Source: Lewinellaceae bacterium SD302
Lineage (GTDB): Bacteria > Bacteroidota > Bacteroidia > Chitinophagales > Saprospiraceae
Direction of reading: 5' to 3'
Assembly: GCA_002591745.1 (NCBI GenBank)
Contig: PDLQ01000003.1
Coordinates: 124,001-188,000 of the forward strand
DNA length: 64,000 nt
The notes under the pieces: generated by a model
What the model was told of the DNA's origin: nothing
The model's input: the letters and a program-made list of their open reading frames with translations, nothing else
Database searches by the model: none
Translations under genes and position numbers: made by a program
Shown: positions 4,037-52,231 of the stretch, piece after piece
Position numbering within the stretch: the first letter of the stretch is position 1
Layout: each line of letters opens with the position of its first letter

Positions 4037-5401
4037 ATGATTACAGGAAAAGACATCGTGGCGCTGGGTTACCAACCCGGCCGCTGGTTCTCCAAGGCCC
4101 TGAAGCATTTGAAAGAAAATCCCCTGGAAGGTCAGGCTCTGAAAAATTATCTGGATTCCTGCTTACCCGTCACCATTCCTCCTCACGCTAAGGGACCGGC
4201 TTATAAAAAGAACATCCGGGCGGAGAGTGAACTGGAGATCAATAACGTTCAAAGCGTTTTCGCGACTATGGACGAGTTAATGAAAACGCCTACTGTAGTG
4301 AGCGGAGCGGTGATGCCGGATGCCTGCCCCACCGGAGGTATCGGTCAAATTCCCGTGGGTGGAGTGGCGGTAACTAAAAATGCGATCCACCCCAATATGC
4401 ACTCTGCGGACATTTGCTGCTCGGTGATGATGACCTCTTTTGGCAATATCGATCCGAAAAAGGTGCTGGATGCCGCTCATTCAATTACTCACTTCGGACC
4501 GGGTGGGCGGGACGAATTTCGTGACCTGCCCAAAGAACTGGAAGAGCGGATGCTGAACAACCACTTCATGGGCTCCAAACGATCCATGCAGTTGGCCAAG
4601 TACCACCTGGGTACCCAGGGTGATGGTAACCACTTCCTGTACGTTGGCCGCTCGGAGCAAACCGGTGAAACTATCATGGTCACTCACCATGGTTCCCGGG
4701 GCTTGGGTGCCAAACTGTTTGACGAGGGGATGCGGGAGGCAGAATCATTCCGTCGGGACATCTCGCCGCTGACCGCCCGCAACAACGCCTGGATCCCCTA
4801 CGATACTAAAGTTGGAAAAGCTTATTGGGAAGCTCTGCAAATTGTGCGGGAGTGGACGAAGCTGAATCATTCCACTCTCCACGATGCGACCATTGCTACT
4901 TTGAAGTCAACCGTACAAAACCGCTTCTGGAACGAGCACAACTTCGTATTCAAAGACGACAACGATCACTTCTACCACGCCAAGGGTGCTACCCCATTGG
5001 ATGATAAATTTGTTCCGGACTCCCAAAACGGCTTAAGATTGATTCCCCTCAACATGGCCGAGCCTGTACTGGTCGTCCAGGGTGAAACCACCGCTGACAA
5101 CCTCGGATTTGCGCCCCACGGGGCCGGTCGTGACGTGAGCCGTACCGCTCACCGCCGCTCCAAAGCAGACCGGTCCACCGAAGAAATCTTCGCCGAGGAA
5201 ACTGCCGGTATTGATGCCCGTTTCTTCTCCGGGGAGATCGACATTACCGAGTTGCCGAGTGCCTATAAAAACGCCGATCGAGTGCAAGCTCAAATGAAGG
5301 AGTTTGGCCTGGGTAAAGTGGTCGATCGTATCCAACCTTATGGTTGTATCATGGCCGGTGACTGGAAAAAGAACGCACCGTGGCGCAAAAAGAAAAAGTG
5401 A
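4037..5401 (+). CDS. rtcB: RtcB-family RNA-splicing ligase homologue
   Basis: RtcB enzymes join RNA 2',3'-cyclic phosphate or 3'-phosphate ends to 5'-OH ends using GTP and Mn2+. The protein has a metal-site segment [10 protein letters not shown] in place of the canonical DIGCGM, then [11 protein letters not shown] (canonical GGGNHF), [17 protein letters not shown], and HGAGRDVSR carrying the histidine that would be guanylylated. The ATG at 4037 gives 454 residues and a typical start. The open frame runs back to 3953, but that part looks non-coding. No archease or RtcA/RtcR gene is adjacent, so its trigger is unknown. Motif spacing fits the family, but the altered residues mark a Bacteroidota-type subgroup and activity is inferred. 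The 13-base repeat CATTGCTACTTTG sits inside it at 4891-4903. Confidence 0.85.
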
Positions 5402-5433
5402 TTATCGGCAAATCGCTTTTGGCGTGTTTTTGC

Positions 5434-5463
5434 TACCGGAGGGCCTTCCATTGCCCTCCGGTA
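5434..5463. terminator. Hairpin between rtcB and the rhomboid gene
   Basis: TACCGGAGGGC (5434-5444) pairs perfectly with GCCCTCCGGTA (5453-5463) around an 8-base loop, 33 bases after the rtcB stop. No T-tract follows, so termination is plausible but not certain. Confidence 0.5.
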
Positions 5464-49483: not shown

Positions 49484-50740
49484 CTATTTATCGGTCATCG
49501 TTTTCCCGACTTCCAGGTAAGTGCCGTCTTCCAGGCTCTTGCGGCAGGCCGCGAAGGCATCCAGGGTCTGCTTGATGTCCGCTTCGGTATGGCTGGCCGT
49601 AGGGATCATCCGGAGTAGGATAGTACCCTTTGGTACCATTGGAGGCAGTACCACCGAACAGAAGATACCGTGGGTTTCACGGATGTCTTTCACCAGGGCG
49701 CCGGCCTCACCGACGGTACCTTTCATGTAGACGGGCGTTACGCAAGCTTCCGGATTTCCGATATCGAAACCGAGGTCACGCAGGCCGTTTTGCAAGGCGT
49801 AAACGTTATCCCAAAGCTTCTTGCGCAGTTCCGCACCTTTTGGGCTGCGAACAATCTCAAGCCGTTTCAACGCACCTTTCACCATCGGCATACAAAGGCT
49901 CTTGGCGAAAAGCTGGCTACGGAGGTTATAGCGGAAGTAGTCCATCAGGAACTTATCTCCGGAGCAGAAAGCACCGAAGCCGGACATGGACTTGGCAAAA
50001 GTGGAGAAATAAACGTCTACTTCATCCATTACGCCCTGGGCCTCACAGGCACCAGCGCCGGTTTCTCCCATAGTACCGAAGCCGTGGGCGTCGTCTACCA
50101 ACAGGCGGAAGCCGTACTTCTCCTTGTGCTTCAGGATCTCTTTCATGATGCCTTGCTCTCCCTTCATCCCGAAGACACCTTCGGTGACGACCAGAATGCC
50201 GCTGTTCAGTTCATCGGCTTTGGCGCGAGCCTGCTCCATACGCACCAGGAAGTGATCGATGTCGTTATGCTTGAAGGCATACTTAGGGCCGGTGTGCATC
50301 CGGATACCGTCCATGATACAGGCGTGGTCATCGCGGTCATACACCACTACGTCGTGGCGGCCGAGCAGTACGTCCACGATGGACATGATGCCCTGGTAGC
50401 CGAAGTTCAGCAGTACGGCGGCTTCTTTCTGGGTATATTCGGCCAGTTGGCGCTCCAGTTCTTCGTGGGCATCGGTCTCACCACTCATGATCCGGGCACC
50501 CATCGGGTAGTGCATACCGTATTCAGCGGCAGCTTCGGCGTCGGCCTGCTGTACTTCTGGCAGGTGGTGAAGTCCCAGATAGCAGTTGATGTTCCAGACC
50601 ACTACTTCACGACCATTGAAACGCATCCGTGGTCCATTGGGGCCTTCCAGCTTCGGGAAAGCAAAGTAATTGTGGGCAACGTCCATGTACTGACCCAGCG
50701 GGCCCATGTGTTCTTGCACCTTATCGAAGATATCTTTCAT
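49484..50740 (-). CDS. Alpha-oxoamine synthase-family PLP enzyme, possibly serine palmitoyltransferase
   Basis: 418-residue fold-type I enzyme condensing an amino acid with an acyl-CoA. The PLP lysine is in TFAKSMSGFGAF. VTEGVFGMKGEQG and LLVDDAHGFGTMGETGAG are the conserved cofactor and substrate motifs, and NYLGL-like NCYLGLHHLPEV is at the N-terminus. The sequence resembles the Bacteroidota enzyme usually annotated as serine palmitoyltransferase or glycine C-acetyltransferase/KAS-like, which supplies sphingolipid precursors. Biotin-type 8-amino-7-oxononanoate synthase remains possible. It is a single gene ending in a terminator hairpin. Confidence 0.85.
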   Translation of the reverse strand: MKDIFDKVQEHMGPLGQYMDVAHNYFAFPKLEGPNGPRMRFNGREVVVWNINCYLGLHHLPEVQQADAEAAAEYGMHYPMGARIMSGETDAHEELERQLAEYTQKEAAVLLNFGYQGIMSIVDVLLGRHDVVVYDRDDHACIMDGIRMHTGPKYAFKHNDIDHFLVRMEQARAKADELNSGILVVTEGVFGMKGEQGIMKEILKHKEKYGFRLLVDDAHGFGTMGETGAGACEAQGVMDEVDVYFSTFAKSMSGFGAFCSGDKFLMDYFRYNLRSQLFAKSLCMPMVKGALKRLEIVRSPKGAELRKKLWDNVYALQNGLRDLGFDIGNPEACVTPVYMKGTVGEAGALVKDIRETHGIFCSVVLPPMVPKGTILLRMIPTASHTEADIKQTLDAFAACRKSLEDGTYLEVGKTMTDK

Positions 50741-51115
50741 TGTAGTTGCTTGGTTGCGGCCGCAAAGATAAGAGAAATTTATCTCCTTATAATCTTCCCA
50801 AAGCTGGGTATCCGGATAAGGCGCCAGGGACCGTGCCTACGTACCGGCAACATTTGCGAATCCGCATCATAATTTGATAAAGGTCATAATTAATAATGCC
50901 TGTTTTAGTCAATAATGCCAGAGATACCTGATCTATGGATAGATGGGTGATTGTGACTAACAAAGTAGCCATGTTGACCGGAATCTTGAGAGAATTTGCC
51001 TTGCGACGATCAGTAAAGTTACAGTAGCCAGGTCGTTGAAAGCCGTTCGTGAAAGTGACTCCAGCTACGCTTGAAAATCATTAGTACTTTGAGCAACAAT
51101 CAGCCAAAACTAAAA
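50741..51115. other. Intergenic region with motif copies between the oxoamine synthase gene and ldcA
   Basis: Holds an altered motif A, CAAAGTAGCCATG at 50961-50973, and a module resembling the reverse of motif B/A at 51001-51030 (GCGACGATCAGTAAAGTTAC, then AGTAGCC). It must contain both divergent promoters. I see no strong TAnnTTTG and no gene. Confidence 0.5.
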
Positions 51116-52231
51116 ATGACCGAACCGACTTTAAAAAAAGTGCATTCTTCCTCCCGCCGTCATCACCTCAAAAAGCTCTTTATGCTGGGTTTACCCACTC
51201 TGCTCGGTTGCGGAGCCGCGAATGTAAGCGCCCGCCCGGATGCCGGGAAGAACTCAGGCTTCTCAACCAGCATTGCTACTTTGAAGCCAAAAAAACTACA
51301 GCCCGGCGATAAAATCCGCTTGGTCGCTCCCGGTGGACCGGTAACCGAAGCGAAGATCAAAGACTCCTACACGAACCTGGAAAAGCTAGGATTGGTGATC
51401 ACCGAAGGAGCAAATATTCGTGAAAAGCGAGGTCAACATGCCGGCACCGACGCTCAACGACTGGCCGACCTCCACGCCGCCTTCGCCGACCAGGAAGTAA
51501 AAGCCATCTGGGCGATCCGGGGTGGCGACGGCGGTTCCCGATTACTGGCTCAACTAGACTATGAGCTGATCCGTAAGAATCCTAAAATTTTGATCGGCTT
51601 CAGTGACATTACGGCCCTGCTGCAGGCGATTAGGGTCAAAACCGGGCTGGTCGGCTTTCACGGGCCCGTCGCTTACTGGCCTTTGGACGCCATGAATTTG
51701 CCGAGTTTGCGCACGACCCTCTTTGAGCCCCCTCAAACAAAGGGCTTTCGTTATCCGCCCGGCTTGGCGACCAAGATACTCGTTGCCGGACGTAGTAGTG
51801 GTCCGCTTGCGGGTGGCAACCTGAGTATTCTCACTGCTCTGGCCGGCACTGAATATGCCCTGGATTGCCGGGACAAACTCATTTTCATCGAGGATGTCGG
51901 CGAAGCCCCGCGGCGGATCGACCGAATGCTGACCACTCTACTCGATGCCACCGGCGGCCGTAGCTTACGTAATGCCAAAGGTATCATCCTGGGCGAATTT
52001 TTAGACTGTGACTGCGAGCGAAACCCGGCCGATCCGGAAAATTGTGCCGGTAATTCCATGACTTTGCCCCAGGTCTTGGCTGATCGGCTCGCTGGTCTGG
52101 GCATCCCGGTGGTGACCGACTTCCCCTTCGGCCACGATGCGAACATGATCACCTTTCCCGTCGGGGTATCCGCCACCCTGGACGCCGGGGCGATGACCGT
52201 AACTTTAGAGGAGGCAGCTACACTTGTCTAG
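51116..52231 (+). CDS. ldcA: Murein tetrapeptide (LD-) carboxypeptidase, S66 family, with Tat-like lipoprotein signal
   Basis: Serine peptidase that removes the terminal D-Ala from murein tetrapeptides. The catalytic domain begins at LQPGDKIRLVAPGGPV. Ser is in GFSDITALLQ, Glu in IFIEDVGEAPRRIDRML and His in FGHDANM. The N-terminus from ATG 51116 has a twin-arginine-type pattern SRRHHLKKLFMLGLPTLLGC, whose LLGC is also a possible lipobox, so export to the periplasm is likely. The frame is open back to 51071. An exact motif A copy lies in frame at 51271-51283 (SIATLKP), just where the family domain begins. About 371 residues. Confidence 0.92.
   Translation: MTEPTLKKVHSSSRRHHLKKLFMLGLPTLLGCGAANVSARPDAGKNSGFSTSIATLKPKKLQPGDKIRLVAPGGPVTEAKIKDSYTNLEKLGLVITEGANIREKRGQHAGTDAQRLADLHAAFADQEVKAIWAIRGGDGGSRLLAQLDYELIRKNPKILIGFSDITALLQAIRVKTGLVGFHGPVAYWPLDAMNLPSLRTTLFEPPQTKGFRYPPGLATKILVAGRSSGPLAGGNLSILTALAGTEYALDCRDKLIFIEDVGEAPRRIDRMLTTLLDATGGRSLRNAKGIILGEFLDCDCERNPADPENCAGNSMTLPQVLADRLAGLGIPVVTDFPFGHDANMITFPVGVSATLDAGAMTVTLEEAATLV

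Follow-up and report, generated by a model that had tools for sequence, protein, structure and literature searches.

To the best of our knowledge, uptake sequences, the textbook example of mate recognition in bacteria, have been characterised in two families of a single phylum, the Neisseriaceae and the Pasteurellaceae, both of which depend on pilus-based uptake. One protein of these systems, ComP, is a pilin. It is the receptor of the DNA uptake sequences (DUS) of the Neisseriaceae (PMC3868556), and for the uptake signal sequences (USS) of the Pasteurellaceae a type IV minor pilin has been proposed as receptor (PMC12616744). Known uptake sequences are reported to be evenly spaced, in excess in non-coding DNA and placed where proteins tolerate them, with about 10% of them forming inverted repeats (PMC1939737), and in the Pasteurellaceae one orientation is commoner within genes, with a bias to gene ends (PMC2346458). 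In the phylum Bacteroidota natural transformation is documented for Riemerella (PMC7965970, PMC8459023), and a transposon screen in Riemerella anatipestifer identified ComEC, DprA, ComF and RecA together with four proteins unlike known machinery (PMC8459023). Our literature search found no uptake-sequence case in this phylum beyond a list of k-mers from Riemerella columbina (PMC7965970). Here we describe a dispersed DNA word from Lewinellaceae bacterium SD302, a member of the Bacteroidota genus Neolewinella (genome G000, 5.48 Mb in 147 contigs), met in a window of 64 kb (contig C71, PDLQ01000003.1, positions 124001-188000). Judged from its sequence and distribution, this motif is on balance probably a DUS/USS-like uptake signal of a Neolewinella species, an interpretation that was absent from an earlier sequence-only reading of the same window.

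That sequence-only reading had drawn attention to eight exact copies of a 13-base word. All eight were recovered at their positions, four on each strand, and not one occurred in 100 dinucleotide shuffles. With up to two mismatches the window contains 23 matches, compared with a mean of 1.48 expected. The near copies listed earlier are likewise present, but two of their positions were one or two bases off (correctly 43380 and 58484), the one at about 58428 is the variant TAAAGTAGCA within another repeat, and eight matches with at most two mismatches had been omitted (682, 11479, 13299, 17875, 28860, 34953, 51079 and 61657). A whole-genome count, which had been suggested as a check, gives 393 copies of the 13-mer (214 forward, 179 reverse) against a single copy of the reversed word, far above random. 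The 198 other genomes of the family, three of them from the same genus, contain only 0 to 3 copies each. In a sample of 1.115 Mb fetched from the source genome (six contigs, window included), every one of the ten most frequent 12-mers is part of the motif.

A longer motif, TTTTTTGGCTnnCAAAGTAGCAATG, has the 13-mer as its core; for this motif an iterated matrix yields about 30 bits over 32 columns and the consensus TTTTTTGGCTnnCAAAGTAGCAATG(T/C)T. Within it CAAAGTAGCA hardly varies, position +12 is a strong G, and there are also a GGCT box and a T-rich side; the USS of the Pasteurellaceae has the same layout, with a stringent core and a weaker AT-rich side. At a threshold of 13 bits the matrix detects 344 sites in the 1.115 Mb, compared with two when its columns are reversed, and intermediate scores are rare. 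By proportion, about 1,690 sites are to be expected in the whole genome, and 20 are found in the window with the refined matrix. According to the logo, the information per column is almost nil outside about -18/+25. Because the copies lie on both strands and on many contigs, and because nothing is shared beyond these limits, one tandem duplication, the event that had been named as fatal to the idea of a dispersed motif, does not explain the 13-mer copies.

For the placement of the sites, genes were predicted in the 1.115 Mb with our own simple gene finder. More than half of the sites (201 of 344, 58%) are intergenic, on 12.8% of the sequence, and the remaining 143 lie in predicted genes. There they sit where the protein tolerates them, as indicated by frame preference, forced codons and gap-rich stretches. 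Of the 136 sites in genes that score well as coding, 76 have CAAAG on the sense strand, divided 59:17 between the two stop-free frames, and 60 have it on the antisense strand, with a frame distribution of 47:10:3. The codons used are far from the usual ones: KVA is spelled AAAGTAGCA in 38 of 90 occurrences (1.8 expected from codon usage), ATL is spelled GCTACTTTG in 47 of 183 (1.3 expected) and QSS is spelled CAAAGTAGC in 16 of 52 (1.6 expected). Selection at the copies within genes acts on the DNA and not on the protein. Their orientation is divided 80 to 63, without a significant bias by 5' or 3' quarter of the gene (p=0.59 and 1.0), and 26 of the 143 are located in the first tenth of the gene.

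Studying 21 Neolewinella genomes including G000 reveals that the word changes with the lineage. Matrices were built from samples of 100-220 kb per genome (1,115 kb for G000), and in all nine genomes with a final matrix, G000 and eight relatives, there is an alignable motif of 25-33 bits with 21-342 sites per sample (0.11-0.38 per kb; reversed controls 0-3). Read on the TGC strand, the dialect of G000 is CatTGCTACTTTGntAgcCaaaa, while most relatives have CnnTGCACCTGCGnCCGCGCC or variants of it: CnnTGCACCTGCGnCCGCGCC itself occurs in G193 (Neolewinella persica DSM 23188), G200 and G116, and the others are CncnGCACCcGCGaCCGCGCC in G199, CncnGCACCtGCGnCAGCGCC in G205, CnctGCACCtGCGncCgCGCC in G206, cnTtGCaCCtGCGCtCCGGCGC in G215 and cttTttACCTGCGCtCCGnCGC in G207. 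The own dialect of G207, TTTACCTGCGCTCCG, appeared only with more sequence, as the first sample had seemed empty. The core of the window species, TGCTACTTTG, differs in four of ten letters from TGCACCTGCG, the core of most relatives; N. persica has the TGCACCTGCG dialect. In 19 of the 20 other genus genomes, among them N. lacunae KCTC 42187 (G201) within the set, TGCACCTGCG is clearly above its reversed control, with 61-1193 copies (the maximum in G193); it is weak in G207 (28 vs 15) and not raised in G000 (11 vs 11).

A variable loop of an RtcB-family gene, at about codons 286-297 (L089-L096), carries the own word in G000 and TGCACCTGCG in G200, in G208 and apparently in G212. As TGCACCTGCG stands in different phases in the loops of G200 and G208, separate gains are suggested. 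In an RtcB tree the forks around G000 are open, and a ComEC tree, which is midpoint-rooted only, places G000 as a long branch beside eight relatives. A search for the RtcB-family gene in phage records gave no match, which has no bearing on the motif.

The sites are spaced more evenly than random: the coefficient of variation of the gaps is 0.83, compared with 1.06 (standard deviation 0.06) in 300 simulations which kept the coding and non-coding numbers, and 0.83 was also obtained for three relatives. A stringent, evenly spaced word, present on both strands, tolerated by proteins, and replaced by an alignable one from lineage to lineage has the profile of the uptake sequences of Neisseriaceae and Pasteurellaceae. 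If the motif is such a signal, the natural-transformation machinery would have a receptor, on the surface or in the periplasm, that binds the word of about 30 bp and favours the import of DNA which carries it. Imported DNA from kin would recombine into the chromosome, and mutation together with biased import would build up the word at all places where it is compatible with proteins and regulators. One dialect per lineage would be expected because word and receptor would change together. The wider proposal is close to an even call: Neolewinella would have a sequence-specific uptake system of separate origin from those in Neisseriaceae and Pasteurellaceae, one that needs no type IV pilus and has species dialects, with a repeat of about 32 bp interrupting some copies.

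Even spacing also fits another explanation, our main rival, in which the motif is bound by a nucleoid protein or another organiser of the chromosome (or by a factor acting in segregation or repair). Such a protein would require sites at even intervals, and its DNA-reading domain would have diverged from species to species. Sites within as well as between genes and dialects on a shared skeleton also speak for it. However, by our own arithmetic about 13 bits would be needed to specify about 1,700 sites, far less than the roughly 30 bits per site, and we know of no nucleoid protein whose sites are this numerous and this stringent. Moreover, the strand skew of the copies on the contigs is weak (214:179), whereas Chi and KOPS (FtsK-orienting polar sequences) are strand-skewed. 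The suggestion of the sequence-only reading that the site of an abundant DNA-binding protein had been found came close, since the motif behaves as a DNA word which is read by a protein and changes with the lineage; as a nucleoid-protein site we consider it unlikely, though deserving serious weight.

Several findings weigh against an uptake signal, the first of them concerning arrangement. The density of sites per kb is highest upstream of genes, with 1.92 in divergent, 1.45 in tandem and 0.53 in convergent regions and 0.15 within genes, and this preference for divergent regions is an excess on the promoter side. The 149 occupied intergenic gaps contain one site (97 gaps) or two (52 gaps) but never more, and in 50 of the 52 two-site gaps the pair is inverted. 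Neighbouring copies less than 400 bp apart are inverted in 65 of 69 cases, 42 of these with the T-rich sides outward, and all 16 close pairs in the three relatives are inverted; there, 7 of the 16 inverted TGCACCTGCG pairs cluster at 68-76 bp. Such pairing and promoter-side preference exceed what we found reported for known uptake sequences, and the outward-facing inverted pairs as well as the promoter-side preference would suit the nucleoid protein discussed above. In addition, one-mismatch forms of the 10-base core make up only a thin halo (130, vs 94 for the reversed word).

The promoter-side excess would likewise be expected if a global regulator used the motif as its promoter or operator element, and of 75 cases in divergent regions, 56 indeed have the CTTTG strand pointing toward the nearer start (56:19). 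Between tandem genes, on the other hand, both orientations are equally frequent (58:57), distances to starts vary widely instead of being fixed, the 143 genic copies lie on both strands, and neither the even spacing nor the excess of information is accounted for. On the grounds of the tandem regions and the genic copies we dropped this explanation, to which we give very little credit.

A second group of contrary findings bears on spread by copying. Similarity of the flanks to those of another site was detected by BLAST for 79 of the 344 sites (143 flank pairs vs 43 in the control), and a Y1_Tnp match is present in 20 of the 21 genus genomes. In the ortholog alignments of genic copies (33 rows from 15 genes; 16 rows from 11 genomes belong to RtcB, some of them counted twice), 9 of 33 windows show some gap (leaving RtcB aside, 7 of 17), compared with 15.1% of the controls. 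Since the genic copies lie in gap-rich stretches and the rows are few, their gain by substitution is not proven. Together with the high copy number, the intergenic excess, the inverted pairs and a weak stem (mean fold energy -4.2 vs -3.5 for shuffled sites), these data would agree with a repeat resembling repetitive extragenic palindromic (REP) elements and their doublets (REPINs) or miniature inverted-repeat transposable elements (MITEs), mobilised in trans by a Y1 (REP-associated tyrosine) transposase.

The sequence-only reading had already offered a REP-like repeat or the remnant of a mobile element, and although the inverted pairing does recall REP doublets, the idea is weak at best. The shared information stops at about -18/+25, so that no larger unit is recognisable, and the consensus folds into a stem of 3-4 bp at most instead of an imperfect palindrome. 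Among the 11 regions with similar flanks that were inspected, other intergenic repeats account for the similarity in 7, and no cause was seen in 4. Across 20 relatives, the number of Y1_Tnp matches and the copy number of the word are uncorrelated (rho 0.02). G000 has a single weak match of 28.9 bits, and G211 has none, yet contains 578 TGCACCTGCG copies. Furthermore, 143 of the 344 copies are genic and thus not extragenic, in tolerated frames and with forced codons; an own-side insertion of at least five residues occurs in just one of the 33 ortholog alignments (1.4% of control windows); and the motif is densest in divergent regions, in which the REPs of Escherichia coli are rare. We therefore regard a REP-like or MITE-like origin as improbable.

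Turning to the machinery which an uptake signal would need, ComEC is encoded in all 21 genus genomes and DprA in 20, being absent only from one that is 55% complete. Both genes are common: of 14 named control genomes, 10 have ComEC and 11 have DprA, so that they lend weak support and are no proof of competence. For the type IV pilus motor (PF00437) only partial matches of up to about 25 bits were obtained in 20 of the 21 genus genomes, with up to 21 candidates scored per genome, and no match in one genus genome that is 55% complete. The genus was searched for the pilus-based receptor system which the known uptake families use, and none was found; partly for this reason we do not file the motif as DUS or USS, and import would have to proceed without the pilus of the known cases.

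A candidate receptor was considered at L166:5673-10601 (contig C115 of G000), where adjoining genes encode a CarboxypepD_reg/TonB-plug barrel and a protein with three DUF5689 domains. This DUF5689 and TonB-like barrel pair is related to RS04920/RS04915 of Riemerella, a pair which is essential for transformation in R. anatipestifer. The second open frame of the locus has a motif copy at its start. Only G000 among the 21 genus genomes has the pair; it was not found in the 20 dialect-carrying relatives. DUF5689 is widespread, occurring in 95 of 120 family genomes, most of which have neither word above background. We rejected the pair as a shared receptor, which also counts against an uptake signal; it may still play a role in the window species alone. 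Among the named genomes no close relative of P0005 was found, and PDB has no match to P0004 or to P0005.

Genes of atypical composition show no depletion of the motif, a further point against biased import. The longest stretch between sites, C71:75008-94385 (19.4 kb), encodes a P-type (E1-E2) ATPase, a resistance-nodulation-division (RND) pump with a fused outer-membrane efflux domain, a cation efflux protein, a HlyD/CusB-like protein, a response regulator and a histidine kinase. This efflux cluster is probably for metals and was possibly acquired, which would speak for uptake; overall, a scarcity of the motif in foreign DNA is not clear-cut.

Beyond the genus, TGCACCTGCG is near background in most of 195 sampled genomes, with a modest excess in a few (G046, 43 vs 0; G125, 48 vs 4; G132, 51 vs 14), which speaks for dialects of the genus. 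Unfavourable is that in seven genomes outside it, covered with 36-60 kb each, no dialect of this word was recognisable. In G087, from another genus, a different word, GCCGAAAGGC, has 7 dispersed copies in 60 kb (L156-L158) and a z of 8.2, similar to the 8.4 of the own word of G000 at 60 kb; it is possible that GCCGAAAGGC is the species word of that genus. G057, also of another genus, contains a long intergenic REP-like repeat, AGGGCCGAGCAGACCTGCGAG..., with its core present 17 times in 60 kb (L147-L149). Taken together, the inverted pairing, the promoter-side preference, the thin halo, the atypical genes, the flank likeness and the presence of Y1 keep a binding protein, and to a lesser degree a REP, in play beside the uptake signal.

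Within the window the matrix places copies both between and inside genes (positions of the whole window, strand in brackets). Those with the exact 13-mer in intergenic DNA are at 8612..8643 (+) and 19777..19808 (+), and, in divergent regions, at 28642..28673 (+) and 43318..43349 (+), whose inverted partners are at 28853..28884 (-) and 43373..43404 (-), respectively. Another exact copy, 17759..17790 (-), has its inverted partner at 17863..17894 (+). Two further divergent regions contain overlapping inverted partners, namely 34933..34964 (+) with 34946..34977 (-), offset by 12 bases, and 61637..61668 (+) with 61650..61681 (-). The copy at 50949..50980 (+) is intergenic, and that at 11472..11503 (-) lies at the predicted 5' end of the gene 11450-12088. 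Inside genes, copies are found at 670..701 (+) in the gene 125-2779 (score 29.2) and, in the frame QSS, at 36783..36814 (+) in the gene 34989-38123 and at 57635..57666 (+) in the gene 57440-58462. Four exact 13-mers had been described as inside or at coding sequence and in frame as ATL or related codons. The reading ATL holds for 4891, which belongs to the copy 4884..4915 (-), antisense within the RtcB-family gene 4037-5401 and included in the ortholog alignments, for 21248 (copy 21241..21272 (-), antisense in the gene 20397-23750) and for 51271 (copy 51264..51295 (-), near the start of the LD-carboxypeptidase (S66) gene 51182-52231), the last being the best of the window with a score of 37.5. 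The fourth, 17766, lies directly against the start predicted for 15894-17768, a gene on the minus strand.

Other repeats were met beside the motif. Some copies are split, with G(G/A)CTTCA followed by 31-33 bases of an intergenic repeat, ACTCCGAGGAC..ACGATCA.., and then by AAGTAGCA. Five clear cases exist in the 1.115 Mb (C1:121028, C1:206202, C71:18094, C71:24777 and C13:95180), and they give the impression that a small repeat, about 32 bp long, landed inside the motif at a fixed point. In the window, 13299-13311, 13358-13367 and 58428-58496 are mosaics related to these split copies; the first (+) is the variant TAAAGTAGCAATG within a mosaic of the same intergenic repeat. A separate intergenic inverted repeat, GGGTCGAGGACCTCCGGTCCGAG...CTCGGACCGGAGGTCCTCGACCC, occurs near motif copies at C1:168787, C1:196510, C2:147450, C71:120221 and C13:14902.

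Should the motif be an uptake signal, a dialect-forming word in Bacteroidota would represent an independent case of mate recognition, in which it could be tested whether biased import alone builds such words. Comparing proteins across the dialect species would then offer a handle on the DNA receptor of pilus-less Bacteroidota, and the word might aid the transformation of Neolewinella.

Compared with the known systems, the motif shares with REP and REPIN elements the many short dispersed copies, often in inverted pairs, but differs in its stem of at most 3-4 bp, its 143 of 344 genic copies and the lack of correlation with Y1 number. Like the DUS of the Neisseriaceae, which exist in hundreds to thousands of copies of 10-12-mers with usually one main dialect per species, and whose dialects are alignable with a conserved core and were found as the most over-represented 10-mers (PMC3630211), it is abundant and dialect-forming; unlike them it belongs to another phylum, is an unrelated and longer word with about 0.3 copies per kb, is almost exclusively paired in inverted orientation, and comes from genomes in which no pilus motor was found. 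With the USS of the Pasteurellaceae it has in common the even spacing, the excess outside genes and the copies in tolerant parts of proteins (PMC1939737), whereas word, phylum and machinery differ, again with no pilus motor found here. R. columbina, a naturally competent species, belongs to the Bacteroidota as well; competition assays show that it prefers its own DNA, since at the same dose foreign DNA fails to compete (PMC7965970). The k-mers listed there are A-rich, and their role was left open (PMC7965970); the word described here, by contrast, is specific, forms dialects and exceeds its reversed control several-hundred-fold.

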